DNA from: Lobulomyces angularis
Taxonomy: Eukaryota; Chytridiomycota; Chytridiomycetes; Lobulomycetales; Lobulomycetaceae
Assembly (NCBI GenBank): GCA_027604685.1
Contig: JADHYX010000254.1
Span: forward strand, 1-31,306
Direction: 5' to 3'
DNA: 31,306 bases
The notes under the pieces were generated by a model. It had not been told where the DNA came from. It worked only from the letters and a program-made list of their open reading frames with translations, and searched no databases. Numbering within the stretch: the stretch's first letter is position 1; the number at the start of each line of letters is the position of its first letter. The translations under genes were made by a program, and so were the position numbers. Positions 1,469 through 22,359 of the stretch are shown in pieces.

Positions 1469-2707
1469 TTATGGCTCCTCTTTTCTTTTTTCGTATCATT
1501 ATTACAAATCATCAACCACTAAAAAAAGTTGGTTTTAACAAATTCAATATCTAATAAAATATATAGATCTAATATAAATATATTCAATATCTAATATAAA
1601 TATATTCAATATCTAATATAAATAAATTCAATATTAATAAAGATAAAATCAGTATTTAATATCAATAATCAATATTAATAAAGATAAATTAAGTATTTGA
1701 TAAAAACAAATTCAATATTAATATAAATAAATTATGTGAAATTTGAATATATTTTAATTACTATCAATTTATTCCATACAACTTAAAATATATTTGTTAC
1801 AGTTGAATAGAATTGATTCAAACACTCATCTTCAGCATCATTAACCCCCCTGAAAAAAAAAAATTATTGATTTAAATACAATATCAAACTTAAATATATT
1901 GAATTCACACTAATAGACAAGCCAATGCAGATATATGAATATGAATATTTTTTTATTATTTTCGAAAATTCTTTTTATTACGAAGTAATTAATTCTATAA
2001 ATAAAAACTCATGCAAACTGTTGGACTAAAAATTTTGTTAAAAATAAATTCAGTTGTTGAATTGATGGTGACAATAATAAACGTTGTTCTAAAATTAAGA
2101 TTTCCTTATCATTAATGTATATTTTATTTCAGTGTAATTTTTTTCGTTTAAAATTAAGATTTCCTAAAAATGCAGAACGATGTAGTATTTTATCTTAAAA
2201 CACTACATAATTTATTTTAATTTTAGAGATGTAATAATTGTAACATGATCTTTTTTAAAAAATAAATTCCGTCTAGCTAAGCAATCTTTTAAATAAATCT
2301 TGCGTAGAAAAACCTATACAAATTCATTTTACAAAATGGTATAACAGAATATAAAATATTTAAAATATATTTCCAATTAACTAAAATAGCATTTTTTATT
2401 TATTAATTTTAAGGTTTTACTCTCTTTTCATTTTGAGTGAGAGCAGAACATTTAAAGAAACGTTTAAAGTCAATTGCTAAATTTTGCATATCTTTATACT
2501 TCATTTAAAAACTCTTTCCACAAATAATAAATAAATAAAGAAAAAGACTATTTACATATTTTTAATTTTAATTGATAGACTAAATCTTTAAAAATTCGAA
2601 AAAATTTTGAAGGAAAGAAAAAAAATAAAAAAAAAATAAAAAAGGTATATAAAAAAGGTATATAAAAAACCAAAAAATTTTAATATTTTTTACCTTAAAG
2701 CAAATAA
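1469..2707. other. AT-rich spacer upstream of RPAP3
   Basis: No gene seen. It holds the AT-rich tandem repeats at about 1555-1735 and a run of A-rich sequence just before the RPAP3 start at 2708 that probably contains the RPAP3 5' UTR and promoter. No clear promoter element can be singled out. Confidence 0.5.
1555..1735. repeat. AT-rich tandem repeat, about 22-bp unit
   Basis: The unit AATATAAATATATTCAATAT plus CT recurs about three times nearly perfectly from 1571 to 1640. Degenerate relatives built around TTCAATATTAATA continue to about 1735. It is noncoding and lies just beyond the 5' side of the minus-strand tRNA-Phe gene. Confidence 0.75.
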
Positions 2708-4502
2708 ATGGAAACAGCTTTCAGTATTCGAAAAAATGCTGAAAATTATCGAGATTCTGTAGTTGAATTAAGTTCATGTATAAACTGAAAAATAAACCTT
2801 TTTTTTTTATTCTTTTTTGATTCTTAATGAAGGGGAAAAAGAGATAAAAAAAAAAGAATTCTTATTAAAAAACAATGCTAAACGCAAAGATTTACCTCCT
2901 GTGAGAGGAACTTCGCAAAAAAAAAAGGATTTCAGAGATTGGGATGATTTAGACGAAGACCAAGACCTAATAGATGTTGGTTTTGTTGATTCTAAACCAG
3001 AAGTTGATAAAATCGAAAAGAGTTTAATAGAAAAAGAAAAGGTTTTTTTTAAAAAAAATACATTGTTTATAACAATAAAGCAAAACTGAATTAAATTTTA
3101 AAGGGAAATGCTTTTTTTAAAATGGGAAAGTTTAAAGAAGCGATTGGTATGCATTAAATTTTGTAACTCTGAAAAAAACAATTTTTTTCTTAAAAAGTTT
3201 GTTACTCGAAGGCAATAAGTTTTGATAAGGAAAACAAAATTTTTTATATAAATAGAGCACAATGCTATATTAAATTCGCATGGTAAATAAAAAAAAATAA
3301 TTTTTTTTAGATTGTATTTTGTTGAAATTATTTTTTTTTTTTTTGAAAAGTTGGGTTGAGGCAGTTATGGATTGCACAACGGCAATAAAATTAGACCCAA
3401 AGAATGTTAAAGCATTTTGGAGAAGAGGAATAGCCCATATGGGATTAAAAGATTATGTTGCAGCAAAAAATGGTAGGCAACCAGCAAAAATTAAATAAAT
3501 TTTTATTGCGTAGACCTGAAATTTGCCGCAACTCTAGAGCCTACTAATGTTGCCATCAAACAAGAGTTAAAAAAAATTTTTGACATAGAAAATTCAATAG
3601 TTGTAAAAAATGAGGAAAAAGTTTCAACCAAAAAAATTGAAACCGATAGCAAAGTTGATTCAGATATTGCCCATAATGCTGAAAAGATTATAAGTGGTAG
3701 AAAAAGAGTTGCAATTAAAGAAGTTGGAGACGCTAAGGATTACTTTAAAAATACTAATGGTAGCAGTGACGAAATATTGAAGGAAATCAGTACAAAATCA
3801 ACTGTTAATACTGCCTCCAAAGAAACTATAGCATTAAAAAAATTGAATGAAATTGTACCTGACAGCAAGGCTATTAATGTTGACAAGTTTTCAGGCCCCA
3901 AAATAGAAAGTGAAACAAATAATTTATCCCAAAAATCAAAGAACCGCGCAAATTTATCAAAAATTTATTCAAATGAATGTGCCAATAAATTTATAATCAA
4001 TGCCCCAAAAAACATGTATGAACTTGAATTAGGATTAAAATCCATAAAAAATGATGATGAAAAAATTTTTGGATATTTAGAGGTTAAACATCTCATAAAA
4101 TTTTTGTGTTTAGATGGTCTTTTTTTTAGTTAATCGACCCCAAAGACTTTCCTACCATTTTCAATAATAGTTTACAAGAAAATTTTTTAAAAATTATTAT
4201 AAGAAATTTGAAGTTAAATTATTTAAATAAAGGTGTAAATTTTCAGAAATGTTTCAATGTATTAAGTCATCTCAGTAAAGTAAAAAGATTTGATATGTGC
4301 TTAATGTTTCTTGAAAAGTCTGTAAAAAAAGGTAACTGGCTATATAAAATTTTTAATTAATTTTTCACTAAACCTGCTTTTTTTTCTTTCTATATTAGAC
4401 ATAGATGAAATATTTTCTTGGATGTTAGCAAGTTGTTCGAATACGTCCACTGACAAGTTGGAAGGAAAAGAAGTAGATGACTTATATAAAAAATACAAGT
4501 AA
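2708..4502 (+). CDS. RNA polymerase II-associated protein 3 (RPAP3) homolog
   Basis: Eight exons: 2708-2777, 2833-3041, 3104-3146, 3198-3282, 3351-3472, 3514-4082, 4130-4331, 4399-4502, all GT-AG, giving an in-frame 467-residue protein. Residues 1-90 carry the RPAP3 N-terminal pattern: a WEKEIKKKE-type helix, LPPVRG, then an acidic DWDDLDEDQD stretch. A single TPR domain of three motifs follows at about 94-197 (GNAFFKMGKF..., FYINRAQCY, AFWRRGIAH). After a low-complexity linker, the RPAP3_C domain (about 339-450) shows YELELGLKSI and LSHLSKVKRFDMCLMF. In the known family, RPAP3 is the HSP90-binding scaffold of the R2TP/PFDL co-chaperone that assembles RNA polymerases, snoRNPs and PIKKs. Vertebrate RPAP3 has two TPR domains; only one is present here. 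Ends convergently with SMU1, about 105 bp away. Confidence 0.92.
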
Positions 4503-14050: not shown

Positions 14051-14299
14051 ATTTTTGAAAATATTTAACTGAAGTATTTTTCTTTTTTGTTTTTATTTCT
14101 CCAAGCCACAAAAGCCTTTCCCGAAAAAAAAAATTAATAGAATAAAAAACATAAAATAGAAAGTAATTAAAAAGTATATATTTTCATAAATAAAAAAAAA
14201 TTTGCAATTAAAAAATCTAAATAAATTATAATAAACTAACTGTAAATTTTTACTATAAATAAAAAGAAAAACATCTCTTTTTTTTTTATTTTTTAAAGA
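14051..14299. other. Short spacer upstream of gene E and the Fanzor relic
   Basis: AT-rich with A and T runs, no gene. It contains the presumed promoter of the minus-strand gene starting at 14050. Confidence 0.5.
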
Positions 14300-15740
14300 A
14301 TGGAAAAGCATCATATTCATGCAACAAAGCAAATTTTAATAAAGTTTTTATCGGAATACCCAAACAACATCAAAAACTCCAATCAGTTATTTTTTAAATT
14401 TTCAGCAAATCGATTAACTATTCATAGTACTCATTTTTTTAAGTATTTTTATGTTAAATTACCCTGAAAACAAAAAATGGAGTTTGATTAATTCTGATTT
14501 TTTTGTTAGAATATACAATTTCCTTAAAATTAAAACAACAAAAGTTACTTGTTAAACAACTGCTATTATTAATGAGATACTTAAAGAATATATTGAAAAG
14601 AATAATAGTGAATTCCGCTGCAAACAAGAAAATATCAAGTATATTGATCAAATTTCTCTTCATCAAGCTTCTATAATATTTACAAATTACACTGTTTATA
14701 TTCAAAAGCATTTTATTCCAAAATTGAAAACATTTATTTCAACAGTGAATATTAAAAACACATAAAGTTAAGACAGAAATTATTTTGAAAAAAGAATGGA
14801 TAAAACATCTTCAAGTTAGAAATCGATTAGTGCAGAAAATTATAATAGAAAATAATAGAGATCTTTCAGAATTATCTGAAAGTGAAATTCAAATCGTTGA
14901 CATCATTAGAACTATATTACCAAACACAATTTAAAAAAGATTCAATTCCTTTTGATTTTTGTTCAAAAAAAAATATTTTGAACCCTACTATAAACTTGGA
15001 TTATTATATGAACAGTACAGATTGCAATCATTTAATGTTTTTCCATTATCCACTTCAACAGTACCAAGACACATAAGATTTGATACCTTAATTTTTTTTA
15101 ACACTGCATTAGGACTCGATAGTGAACGTGTAAAAGGTATCTAAATGTAAAAGATAATCTGGAAAATATATGGTGTAAATTATTTAATTTAGAAAGAAAC
15201 CATTCAAATCAAGAATTGGAATGGTATTTTCAGGGGCAATTGAAACTGATGGAATATCAATCGCAGTGTGTTTAGAAGACATCAAAACTCAAAATAAAAA
15301 AAAGAATAGAAAGGGAAAAAAGAGAAAAAAACCAGGAAATTGATAAAACAAAACAACCAGCAAAAACAAAATTTAAAAAAAGTTAAAAATAAAATTATTC
15401 TTCAGAGTATTTTCAAAACAACACTTTAAAAAGAAAATCATGTTTATATTGATCCAAATAAAAGAGACCTATTGTATTGTTTGGGTAATTTTTAAAAACA
15501 AAGAACTAAAGTTTTATTATTTTATTATATACAGGATGGAATGATGAAAAACTCAGATATACCCAAATGCAAAGAAGAATTGAAAGTAAAGCTAAAAGTT
15601 AGGAATTAATTAGAAGAAAATTAGAAAGCGATAATAACCTTTTGACAAAACAAGAAGTTTATGGAAGGAATGGTTTAAAAAATTTAATTTATTGATGCAT
15701 GGAGTTAGACCAGTTTATTTAAATAGACAGATGTTGTAAA
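14300..15740 (+). pseudogene. Decayed Fanzor (eukaryotic TnpB-like RNA-guided nuclease) gene
   Basis: Reading across frames gives successive pieces of a Fanzor protein. About 14300-14760 has the N-terminal region, with ASIIFTNYTVYIQKHFIPKL matching the family's conserved NNI..HF helix. About 14779-15137 has FNVFPLSTSTVPRHIRFDT, the family's FxxLPLxxxxxPxxIxxDT segment. About 15190-15340 has FSGAIETDGISIAV (TDG strand) then a lysine-rich linker. About 15439-15484 has VYIDPNKRDLLYCLG, the RuvC-I strand with catalytic Asp at 15451-15453. About 15535-15600 has LRYTQMQRRIES (RYT..QRR segment). At least five in-frame stops or frameshifts occur (e.g. TAA near 14554 and 14932, TGA near 15341, TAG at 15600). 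A 50-nt GT-AG intron at 15485-15534 joins the RuvC-I piece to the RYT piece in frame. RuvC-II, the zinc finger and RuvC-III are missing. Intact Fanzors are about 500-700 residues, transposon-associated and omega-RNA-guided. No terminal repeats were identified. It cannot encode a working nuclease. Confidence 0.82.
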
Positions 15741-15894
15741 TTTTTTCCTAATAGTTTTCGCTAATTTTTTAATTGGTGTTTTTGTTTTATAATATTTTTG
15801 ATATTTAATGTTCAAAAGATAATGCTCACACACTATAATATAGATAAATATAAACTCTAATAATTTAAATGCTGTATTAATATTAATAAATATT

Positions 15895-18081: not shown

Positions 18082-18657
18082 TTTTTTGAGTTCATTTCAT
18101 TTGACAGTATGGTTATAGATCATGGTGGGTTAGTAAGTATCATTATATTTGGAATAATTTATTGTTACTTTTTTTATTTCATTAAAAGTTTTTTATTCAA
18201 CATCTCATTTATCATGGTTTTTGGTATTAGTTAAATGTTTACTGTTTAATATAGATTTCCAAAATTTTACTTTACTTGCGACAGATACAACAGGCCACTT
18301 TAATAATGTTGCCGTTAGAGGTAGTATTATTTATTATCTCAGAATACTTCAAAGTTATAACATTACACTGAAACTATTACAGTTTTGTCAAGGAATACTC
18401 TACCTTCTGCAAGTTTTACATTTCAGAAAGTTGTATGAAATCTGATGACATTTTGTAGTGGGTATGGTATTGAATGATAAAAACCTTACAAAGAAATTAT
18501 CAATATGCAAAATTAAAAAAAAAAGTTGAATTTCTAAACACATCATATCTTTTATTAAATTTAAATCCTACAAATTAAAAAAAAAAATATAATTCACTTA
18601 TAATAATTTAATGAACAGTTGTTAACAAAAACAGTTATAATAGATATATTTTTATCC
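18082..18657. other. Spacer after tRNA-Lys with eIF3a 3' region
   Basis: Two short open frames occur on the plus strand (about 18109-18234 and 18221-18445). They are hydrophobic or patternless and I cannot assign them. The right end is the 3' flank of the minus-strand eIF3a gene. Confidence 0.45.
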
Positions 18658-21600
18658 TCATCTTTGGCTTGGAGGAATATACCTGTCACCAGATGGTTTT
18701 GATGCAGTACTTCTTGAGGTTGAAGATTTCTCCTCAACTTTTCTCCAGCCACCATCAGCATCATCTTTCCTATCCCTATTAATTCTTTCAAATGCGCTAC
18801 TGCCAGTTGAGCGATAATCTCTGTCACTGTCTCCCACACGTCTATCTCTATTGTCCCTACTGCTGTTACCATAGCGGTTATCTCTGTCACTGTCACCTGC
18901 ACGTCTCTCTCGATTGTCACTGCCAGTATTATAACGATTCTCTCTAGTGTCACTCCCGTAATTTCTAAAATGATTAATAAAGTAATTTTAGAAATGGCCT
19001 CACCCTCTGAAACTTGATCTATCACTGAATCCATATCTTTCACTAGCTCCGACTCTTGAACCTCTTGTTCTGTCTGCTCTATCACTGCCAACAGGAGATT
19101 GACTGCTCATTGACTGCCGTTGAGGTGGAACATATTTTTTACTTCCAGTATCATCTACATTGGCTTTTGCGGAAGCACCAGGAACAACTTTACCTGTACT
19201 ACCGTAAACTTCAGTTCCACTTTTTTTGAGAGAGTTAAGCTTTTCCTCCGCAGCCCTTGTTCTTTCATTTTGTTTTCTAGCTTGTTCGTCAAATTTCCTA
19301 CAGCATGAATAGTAAACAAAAAAAAATAAAAAAATAAAATAAATTGAAAGAATACTTTCTTCGTTCCAAAGATGCTGCTCGTTCGCTTTCTTCTTTGTTT
19401 AATTTTTCTTGAGCAAGACGGGCTTTTTCTATATCAGTTCGTAATTAAATATAAAATAAAATTTTTTCTTTTTTCTAAATACCTTTTTGTTCTTGAAGTT
19501 TTTGTTCTTCCAATCGTTTCTTTTCTTCAAGTTCTTTTTCTAATCTCACCCTCTCTGCTTCTCTCTCTTCTAAAACTTGTTTTCTTTTCAAATCTTTTGC
19601 ATTTTTTAACTCTAGATCCAATTTAGATTTTTTCTCATTAAAATTACTATCATAATTTTTTTTTAAATTGTCCTTGAAGGAATTTGCATCTGCTAACATT
19701 CTTTCCAATCTTTTCTTCGTTTCCATATTTTCTTTAAATAAAATTTTGGATTCTTCTAATTTTTTATTATTTAATGCTATGTGATTAGCTCTATCAATGT
19801 TTTTTTGATGTTCGTAATCCTTTTTTAAAAGCGGTATCTCTTCCTTTTTAAATGCTCTAGCCAAATGATCAGTTCTTCTTGCCAATTCCCTAGCTTTTTC
19901 TTTACCGTGCCTTAAGTCATGGTCAAGCATTTTTCTCAAAATTATAGCCAATTCATTTGGTTCTTTTGCAAGGAGATCATCTTTCACAGGAATACCCTTA
20001 TCACTTAAAGCTTTCAACAATTGGTTTACTGACTTTTGATCAGCTTCCTTCTTAGCTGAGGCTAAATCTGCCTGTAATTTTTGCTCAGCTCGTAACTTGG
20101 TTTCATTTTCTATTCTTCTTCGTTCTGATTCCATCAAAATAACTTGAGCCCTCGCTCTTTCTTCTCTTTCTCGTTGTTCCTATAAAAAAAAAAAAAACTA
20201 ATTTAACGGATATTAAAATTGTTGATTACTCGAATAAATGCATCATTTTCACGATCCTCTTTCTTCTTTTCAATTAAGGTTCTTCTTGCCACAGTAGCTA
20301 ATCTCTCTTTTTCAGCAAATTGCAAAGCTAGGTCAACCGCCTCTTTTCGTTTTTTTGCTTTCTCTATAGCCAATTGTGGGTTAATAAAAACAGCTGCAAT
20401 TTGCAATTTGTAAGCCAATCTAGATAAGTGAAATCTCATTTGGTCCACAGGTAGAGATCCTAATCTTGGACCTTCGGACACAGTTGTTTTCAAATTTGAA
20501 AAGACATCTTGTTCAAACGTTATAGACTGAGTTTGGTGGTCTATTCTTATAGAAAGTTCTCCTCTCTTACATCCATTCATTATAAATTTTTCAATTTTAT
20601 GTGCATTTAAGTTGAAAGGTTCTTGGAAAGTAGCTAAATTGACAATAGAATCAATCTTGACTGTGGTATAAACCTGAGAAAGTTGCTGAAGCAGACGAGT
20701 CAATATTACAGATTGAAGAGGTTTAGCATATTTAGCTAATTCGTTGTTTTTTAGTACACTTTGCATAATTGGTTCAATCTTTTTGCAGATTGAAAGTGGA
20801 TGAAATTGTACTTCAAGAATACTGTATAGATCCTTTAACTCAGGTAATACATGTTGAAATACACTTTTGTTCAACTACATTTGATTTTAATTAAAAATTT
20901 GAAGACAAAAAAAAATTTAAATTTACAGCAAATTTTAATAAAGCTTCTCGGGAAGGGGGAGTTGCAACTAGTAGTAACGCGGATAACCTTAAGTTTTTAA
21001 GTTTATTATCCTCTGACACTGAATAGGTTTTAGTTTTTGCCGCACTAATAATAGGAATGCTTAATGCTGAGATCAGGACCATTGACGCCATCCTAAAATA
21101 GTTAGCAAATATAGATTTTAACGTAAACAATTAATTCTTACTTTTGGGTCTCATGATCTGACATAGTGTTTCTTTTATTTTGATACAGTTTATTCCAAGC
21201 GGCAGCATGGAAAAGATAATTCTCACCAACCAAAAAAATTTTTGCTAGTTTCTCATAATAATTTGACATCATAAATGGTTTAGCTGTTTTTTTTGTCATA
21301 TCCAACAACTGATGAATGTCTTCAATTGATCGGTAGGCTTCCTGCCATAATTCTAACGCAGAGGCAACATTCAGTTGCCGAAACCTTGTGTCTAAATGTC
21401 TATGTAAAGTTTCTGGTTCATTTAAATTCACGGAGTGCGGTTGATGAGAATACTTTGCTGTAGTTTGCAAGTGTTGGCGTAAAAGTTCACATAACCTTCT
21501 AAACTCTGTATTACGTACATGATTCAAGCAGAAATCAAAAGCTTGACTTGCAACAGTCTTAAAAAATAAAAAATTTTTTTTAGTACTGGCATTAAAATGT

Positions 21601-22359
21601 TCCATATTTGAAAGCCATTAATTAGTTTTTTTTAAAAAAAAAAATTTTAAACTTTAGGTCCTGTTTTTCAAGACATCTCACCTGATACAAAATTTCCAAC
21701 CTTGCATTGTTTCTCAAAATATCAAGTGCAGTACGATAAGCTTCCCATAAAAACTTTAACCAAGGGGTAACCAGTTCTCTATCAGTCCTTTCCTTATTAG
21801 CACTTTCTGCTGTAAGCAATACTGTAGAGAGGATTATAGATTCTGGAGTTTCAGTGGCTTCCAAATCTTCAACAGTTGTAAGTGTTAATTGATCAGCCTT
21901 TGATTGGGCTTCTGTAACTTTAGTTTCCGCAAGTTCAATAAATTTTCTTATCACCGTCTAAAAATTTTTAGTTAAATATTTTTTAAAATCTGACCTCAAT
22001 AGTGTTAATGGCAACATTTTGAGATATGTTTTTATATTGATGCAGAGCTTCTTTTGCAGCTTTCCCTTTTCTTTGGTCAACAGTCAATTCTATAAATTTT
22101 AACAGTATTGGCTCCAAAGACGCAATTGGTGTTGATCTGAATCTAATTTAAATAGAAATAAAAAAATGTTTGTTAATTAAAATAATTGCTAATGATACCT
22201 TTTTGACATAATGAAATCGTGCAACAAAGTTAATGCTTGAGCATTTTGTTTTAGTGAGACTAGCTCTTCACATCTTTTTAAGGTGTTTTCTCCTTTAAAG
22301 TTCTATAATTCAATTTGTTATTGTTAACTTGTAAAAGTTAAATATATTATTATTACCAT
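18658..22359 (-). CDS. Eukaryotic translation initiation factor 3 subunit A (eIF3a)
   Basis: Eleven exons: 22359-22357, 22302-22199, 22142-21995, 21957-21682, 21557-21142, 21092-20927, 20874-20230, 20179-19483, 19428-19356, 19297-19004, 18964-18658. They join in frame to 1042 residues. The N-terminus reads [17 protein letters not shown], matching eIF3a [32 protein letters not shown] and [20 protein letters not shown] are diagnostic. The PCI domain spans about 350-540 ([32 protein letters not shown]). A long charged coiled coil spans about 560-870 with [11 protein letters not shown]. The tail has short [12 protein letters not shown] repeats, as in animal eIF3a. In the family it is the scaffold of the eIF3 complex on the 40S ribosome, alongside eIF3b and eIF3c. 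The first coding exon is only ATG, and the intron at 21958-21994 is just 37 nt. Confidence 0.95.

Follow-up and report, generated by a model that had tools for sequence, protein, structure and literature searches.

The window, i.e. the whole analysed stretch of 31,306 nucleotides from the chytrid Lobulomyces angularis, carries on its plus strand, from about 14141 to 15833 and hence past 15740, an interval that comparison with related sequences has confirmed as a decayed, internally deleted copy of a Fanzor1 (SpuFz1-type) OMEGA transposon, 84–86% identical to its nearest relatives. The host belongs to the Chytridiomycota, in agreement with the first-pass annotation, which had ascribed the DNA to an early-fungal type of genome from its letters alone. 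Elsewhere in the window, at about 18594–21957 on the minus strand, a host gene is represented by long, exon-like frames that look like those of translation initiation factor eIF3a.

At the left boundary of the element, an inner remnant of the terminal inverted repeat can be recognized by eye at 14141–14152, its outer part being lost or unrecognizable; the alignment of the window with the copies C26 and C181 starts at 14147–14148, and the C26 copy (C26:80167) has the full left repeat. The coding pieces that follow, all on the plus strand, consist of a decayed N-terminal Fanzor1 piece with NRLTIHSTHFFKYF (14300–14464), a piece that reads KKKYFEPYYKLGLLYEQYRLQSFNVFPLSTSTVPRHIRFDT and includes FNVFPLSTSTVPRHIRFDT (14965–15141), a piece with ETDGISIAV at about 15242 (15214–15340), a RuvC-I exon piece that has VYIDPNKRDLLYCLG from 15430 onward and includes its Asp (15430–15484), and a piece with WNDEKLRYTQMQRRIESKAKS (15535–15602), with LRYTQMQRRIES found after 15535. 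Each of the motifs named in the first-pass annotation is thus present where it had been placed. The passage from VYIDP to LRYTQ, for which the reading frame shifts, probably spans a spliceosomal intron of 50 nt with GT..AG borders (15485–15534, plus strand), because a like, indel-rich stretch is found at the same position in sister copies of the same group; many copies of the A group have one, and copies C1, C258, and C18 are without it. The motifs had originally been read across shifting frames, and the other shifts do look like real decay, but decay as the cause of all of them was rejected in view of the intron-like nature of the RuvC-I/LRYTQ shift.

The catalytic half that follows has been removed by an internal deletion, whose junction at 15680–15697 (plus strand) shows a short TTTA homology and lacks approximately 550 bp present in C26, in which the GDWS (RuvC-II), zinc-finger, and NRDD (RuvC-III) parts can be read. 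The earlier statement that the C-terminal half is gone therefore stands for the catalytic part but not for the terminus itself, since the last residues (LMHGVRPVYLNR, 15692 onward) and the right end were kept, the retained C-terminal tail with its stop codon (LMHGVRPVYLNRQML) occupying 15692–15739 on the plus strand. Beyond it, the right-end region at 15748–15833 (plus strand) corresponds to a putative omega-RNA scaffold, which in this copy has decayed and lost its fold (z about −0.5), and includes the right terminal inverted repeat at 15808–15833 (plus strand). The TA target-site dinucleotide of the right end follows at 15834–15835, and the host sequence at 15836–15855 (plus strand) would be at the guide position of the putative omega RNA, by analogy with SpuFz1 (PMC10432273).

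The claim that the interval is the relic of a Fanzor is upheld by searches of the PDB sequences, in which SpuFz1, the Fanzor1 of Spizellomyces, was the top match for two of the three window pieces tested singly, namely the 14965–15141 piece (E = 1.8e-6) and the RuvC-I and LRYTQ pieces joined over the inferred intron (E = 3.3e-6). These two are collinear in SpuFz1, aligning to chain positions 635–681 and then 771–806, and the RuvC-I Asp is present, with VYIDPNKRD of the window aligned to VIDPNKRD of SpuFz1. The N-terminal window piece alone returned no match among the PDB sequences up to E = 10; the homologous frame of copy C481 matched SpuFz1 with 1.8e-13. As for the ETDGISIAV piece, its counterpart in copy C1 can be aligned with SpuFz1, and the C1 frame matched SpuFz1 with 1.7e-27 and the Parasitella Fanzor1 with 1.6e-19. 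The RuvC-II/zinc-finger part of C258 matched SpuFz1 with 9.1e-11, and matched the Parasitella Fanzor1 too. In the window copy the RuvC-II Glu, the C4 zinc finger, and the RuvC-III RD are absent by deletion, making it a relic rather than a working member; the RuvC-II, zinc-finger, and RuvC-III parts are kept by sister copies such as C258, and NRDDVATMN could be read. Scans of the Fanzor pieces against the copy of Pfam searched matched no Fanzor model, and PF26935 occurs as a precomputed label on several of 16 related proteins, those named being from Lobulomyces itself, Clydaea, and Kappamyces. It could be argued that the spread of the decay over several frames, together with the N-terminal piece alone being without a PDB match, points to a diverged TnpB or some other non-Fanzor gene, but this is extremely improbable given that the other two pieces have SpuFz1 as their top match and that sister copies match Fanzor1 across the N-terminal, RuvC-I, and RuvC-II/zinc-finger parts; a TnpB or unrelated origin of the window piece was rejected on the PDB matches.

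The first-pass annotation had further suggested that intact relatives and their transposon ends may survive elsewhere in the genome, and of this the dispersed family with common transposon ends was found, but intact relatives have not been seen so far. A search of the genome with the window DNA gave at least 76 match pieces, including the window itself and several pieces per copy, a lower bound since 40 of the 103 candidates were scored, and a 41-aa segment of the 14965–15141 piece gave 62 matches, itself included. Among the 120 sequences examined, a sample outside of which many copies lie, no intact Fanzor frame was found, and the longest Fanzor-matching open frames, counted as uninterrupted genomic frames, were of 333 aa (C255) and 332 aa (C216 minus strand, L036, starting at base 2001 of the reverse-complemented sequence); the protein of Spu-1, the Spizellomyces punctatus element, has a length of 633 aa (PMC3627910). 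Across 15 distinct ungapped stretches, the window included, the differences per site in the 40-codon core amount to 0.21, 0.11, and 0.34 for the first, second, and third codon position, respectively, and the lineages would therefore have evolved as proteins before they decayed, a pattern that we take as a sign of past purifying selection. Between the window and its near relative C181 there are just 7 differing sites (1, 3, and 3 for the three codon positions), a number too small to interpret. As no intact Fanzor frame has been seen and the transposase frames described below are broken, there is no evidence of present activity.

The 333-aa open Fanzor1 frame of C255 (L066; minus strand 2390–3388) is without the RuvC-II stretch, which is absent in frame, and is followed by NRDDVATLN in a different frame and then by a GAGTAG-TTTTCA-CTACTC hairpin; it is possibly a dead-nuclease derivative. 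The PF07282 profile gave 25 matches in the genome, 5 of them over the cut-off, and as far as the frames could be read these five would represent other Fanzor or TnpB-like groups. The loci C78 (L001), C123 (L002), and C189 (L004) make up a second family of OMEGA type, in which a TnpB zinc-finger domain scores over the cut-off. Among the PDB sequences, the C78 piece is matched best by the TnpB-like protein L79 (7e-17), a mimivirus protein, and the family is on that account probably Fanzor2-like. A third, distinct TnpB/Fanzor zinc-finger family, also with PF07282 over the cut-off, is found at C247 (L003) and C107:41152–44295 (L005).

The well-kept Fanzor1 copies are bounded by inverted repeats of approximately 28 bp, AGTGCTTGGGCATTATCTTTTTGAACAT and its complement, adjoining TA. 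The repeat pattern, with up to 3 mismatches, occurs at 66 forward and 58 reverse places of the genome, and at none for the backward control. Inverted repeats, TA sites, and dispersed copies show the family to be carried by a transposable element, and in the window copy the right end alone is still intact. A left boundary drawn two bases further out, with AT inside the element, was rejected by eye, as the right flanks are without a matching duplication. The same repeats also enclose a DDE transposase of the IS630/Tc1/mariner type, which is located not inside the Fanzor copies but at two further loci, namely C280:11220–13730, where the repeat occurs with one difference (27/28) at both ends and transposase pieces are encoded, and the compact element C70:29879–31329, where one repeat is 27/28 and the other has 4 differences. 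For most of the transposase part, the two elements share 93% identity, and the repeat of the Fanzor copy C405 has the same one-base variant as C280. The transposase pieces matched the Pfam models DDE_3 and HTH_23, as well as an IS630 family model below the cut-off, and the last D is separated from the E by 44 residues; the frames are broken in all three loci read. Further sequence is associated with these repeats: in C280:11100–13850 (L073) a second frame with a coiled-coil-like stretch lies opposite the transposase, on the plus strand at about 408–881 of the piece, for which no Pfam match over the cut-off was obtained, and two short elements with the same repeats, C280:302–1341 (L074) and C115:54978–55827 (L076), have other open frames. 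The latter includes an LDSGACPHMY stretch, in our view reminiscent of retropepsins, although Pfam gave no match to this piece.

The flanks of the insertions were compared over 109 ends, i.e. 43 left ends, 49 right ends, 9 ends from elements that have these repeats but no Fanzor, and 8 unclassified ends that were dropped, the set retaining 4 left ends and 1 right end whose match does not start with TA. With the ends classed by what lies inward of the repeat, the subfamilies assigned by the analyst, and the dinucleotides chosen after inspection, the two bases before TA at the left ends are AT in 12 of 15 for subfamily A1, TA or CA in 7 of 7 for B (4 and 3, respectively), and CA in 5 of 5 for D, with CA in none of the 15 A1 ends. 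The left flanks of A2 (n = 10) and E (n = 6) are mixed, and the 49 right ends are without a subfamily dinucleotide pattern: AT is found at 2 of them (Fisher 1.1e-8 for A1), YA at 7 (1.5e-5 for B), and CA at 2 (6.6e-6 for D). Binomial comparison to the TA sites of the window gave 8e-9 for A1, 4e-7 for B, and 5e-8 for D. The association between dinucleotide and subfamily at the left ends was reached in 0 of 20000 permutations (7 classes), compared to P = 0.058 at the right ends; by position, it was reached in 0 of 5000 at −2 and −1, in 5 of 5000 at −4, and in at least 372 of 5000 at each of the remaining five.

The nine Fanzor-less ends serve as a control for these flanks, having TA 4 times, AA twice, GT, AG, and AT once each, and CA not at all, which gives P = 0.03 for B, 0.0005 for D, and 0.002 for A1. 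Since TA is found in 4 of the 9, B is hardly distinct from this control, and part of its YA may be a TATA preference of the transposase itself. Similarly, T at −4, present at 36 of 43 left and 29 of 49 right ends, may be the transposase's own preference. The five D-type ends (C86, C184, C262, C286, and C488), called left by judgement for want of a match to the right-end sequence, are near contig ends and have near-perfect repeats, as would be the case if recent, high-copy elements had dropped out of the assembly; no Fanzor gene is seen behind them because the contigs stop within a few hundred bases. In a further D-type copy, C42, the alignment takes in the A of the CA and stops short of its C. 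By analogy, the D ends could belong to Fanzor-less “ghost” elements such as those of Saito et al., which also have CA (PMC10432273). Spu-1 elements themselves show a conserved CA left of TA, the target-adjacent motif (TAM) of SpuFz1 being CATA (PMC10432273). We read the left-flank footprint as the target motif of the nuclease, a reading that the Fanzor-less control weakens for B. The TAM of the window copy itself is unreadable, as its left end is lost.

The opposite end of the elements is distinguished by an RNA-like fold. Over the last 90 nt (75–77 nt for a few), z was below −3 for 34 of the 49 right ends and 1 of the 43 left ends. A first, hand-chosen set of 43 right and 37 left ends (28 and 1 with z below −3) had mean z of −3.79 and −0.61, respectively (Mann–Whitney 9e-11), and the remaining 6 and 6 ends, added later, gave 6 of 6 right and 0 of 6 left. 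For the Fanzor-less elements with the same repeats, 0 of 9 ends had z below −3, the mean being +0.39. The fold starts after the coding end with a small hairpin, next to which there is a long stem with the right repeat as its 3′ arm, and in an alignment of 44 right-end sequences 87% of the cells pair, compared to 38–54% when the alignment is slid. Covariation did not lend support to the stem on this full alignment, with 3 pairs changed on both sides against a shuffle mean of 2.8. The first hairpin was compared in the 34 of 45 sequences (the 44 right ends and C255) that fit the search expression, 11 being dropped; as the expression fixes pairs 1–3, the informative pairs are 4–6, and across families pair 5 is A-U in 21 and C-G in 11 and pair 4 is A-U in 26, U-A in 1, and G-C in 1. 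Fold and position are as expected of a guide (omega) RNA, which is for SpuFz1 described as a scaffold of ~75 nt that includes the right repeat, with a guide of 14–15 nt from the host flank (PMC10432273), and we regard the right-end fold as a putative omega RNA by this analogy. The stem might instead be a DNA feature, a palindromic second copy of the repeat bound, e.g., by the transposase, as the repeat itself makes up its 3′ arm and the covariation does not exceed that of shuffles. We consider this improbable, given that the stem is weak or absent both at the left ends and in elements that share the repeats but have no Fanzor, that the first hairpin stem is kept with differing base pairs between families, and that its position fits the omega RNA of SpuFz1 (PMC10432273).

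The model that we favor, with a probability of roughly 0.7, is that the window holds a dead copy of a SpuFz1-type OMEGA transposon, the elements having been moved in trans by the transposase and their insertions at TAM sites having been kept by Fanzor cutting. In this model, the mobility of the Fanzor elements would have been supplied in trans by the DDE transposase, with TA as the target site. The omega RNA, which would end in host sequence to the right of the element, would then guide Fanzor to the empty allele, which would be cut where the left flank together with TA gave the TAM, i.e. approximately ATTA for A1, YATA for B, and CATA for D. Subsequent repair off the occupied chromosome would restore the element, such that the insertions at TAM sites would have persisted and the other insertions would have been lost. 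The window copy no longer acts in this manner, because it has lost the right-end fold, most of the left repeat, and all but one of the three RuvC parts. The wider proposal that the insertion sites record the action of Fanzor, each subfamily having survived preferentially at sites with its own TAM, and that RNA-guided cutting of emptied sites and the IS630/Tc1-type transposase acting in trans together governed which insertions lasted, appears to us evenly balanced.

An alternative model dispenses with the nuclease: the left dinucleotide would reflect a one-sided choice of target by the transposase, owing to sequence that differs just inward of the two repeats, and Fanzor would be an idle passenger. 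It has to be noted that both the left and the right inner sequences vary between subfamilies, that TA is found in 4 of the 9 Fanzor-less ends, as in 4 of the 7 left ends of B, and that T at −4 is favored on both sides, because of which the transposase must be credited with some flank preference. We nevertheless consider this model rather unlikely, as the CA that is conserved in Spu-1 and forms part of the SpuFz1 TAM (PMC10432273) is the CA of D, the preferred dinucleotide varies by subfamily, and the CA of D and the AT of A1 are rare at the Fanzor-less ends (0/9 and 1/9, respectively). In addition, a bias of orientation would be unexpected of a DDE transposase that acts on two like ends, the two repeats being nearly identical.

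The TnpB proteins of the IS200/IS605 and IS607 elements are RNA-guided nucleases thought to restore their element at an emptied site. The Lobulomyces family differs from these in that they have different transposases and no TA-flanked inverted repeats, and their protein is only distantly related. It resembles Spu-1/SpuFz1 of Spizellomyces punctatus (Bao and Jurka 2013, PMC3627910; Saito et al. 2023, PMC10432273) in being an element of ~2 kb with Fanzor1 only, inverted repeats of ~30 bp, and TA sites. To the left of the 5′ repeat, Spu-1 has conserved bases that make up its TAM (CATA), for which the left-flank bases here would be the counterpart, and the guide RNA of the right end has a putative counterpart here as well (PMC10432273). 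Unlike in Spu-1, the left-flank bases of Lobulomyces vary between several subfamilies (AT, TA/CA, and CA), some of the copies have a probable intron, none has been seen intact, and the repeats also enclose a DDE transposase, in broken form. For Spu-1, such a transposase was sought between the repeats by Saito et al. in 2023 and none was found (PMC10432273). The Fanzor1 elements of the PUl-4 type from Pythium are again Fanzor-only elements with repeats and TA sites in common with a Mariner-type family (PMC3627910); compared by description, these differ in that the host lineage is another one and the transposase here is IS630/Tc1-like. Since Fanzor1 elements with Mariner repeats are thus known elsewhere (PMC3627910), the sharing of repeats with a transposase is not new in kind, and among the open-licence papers listed by literature searches, none announces such a partner for the Lobulomyces Fanzor in its title or the opening of its abstract.

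Taken by itself, the window's relic is ordinary, and the wider interest of the family lies in the transposase with the same repeats and in the one-sided, subfamily-specific flanks. The biological role of Fanzor was called unknown by Saito et al. in 2023 (PMC10432273). Lobulomyces angularis, with dozens of copies, a transposase that shares their repeats, and TAM-like flanks particular to each subfamily, would make that role testable.
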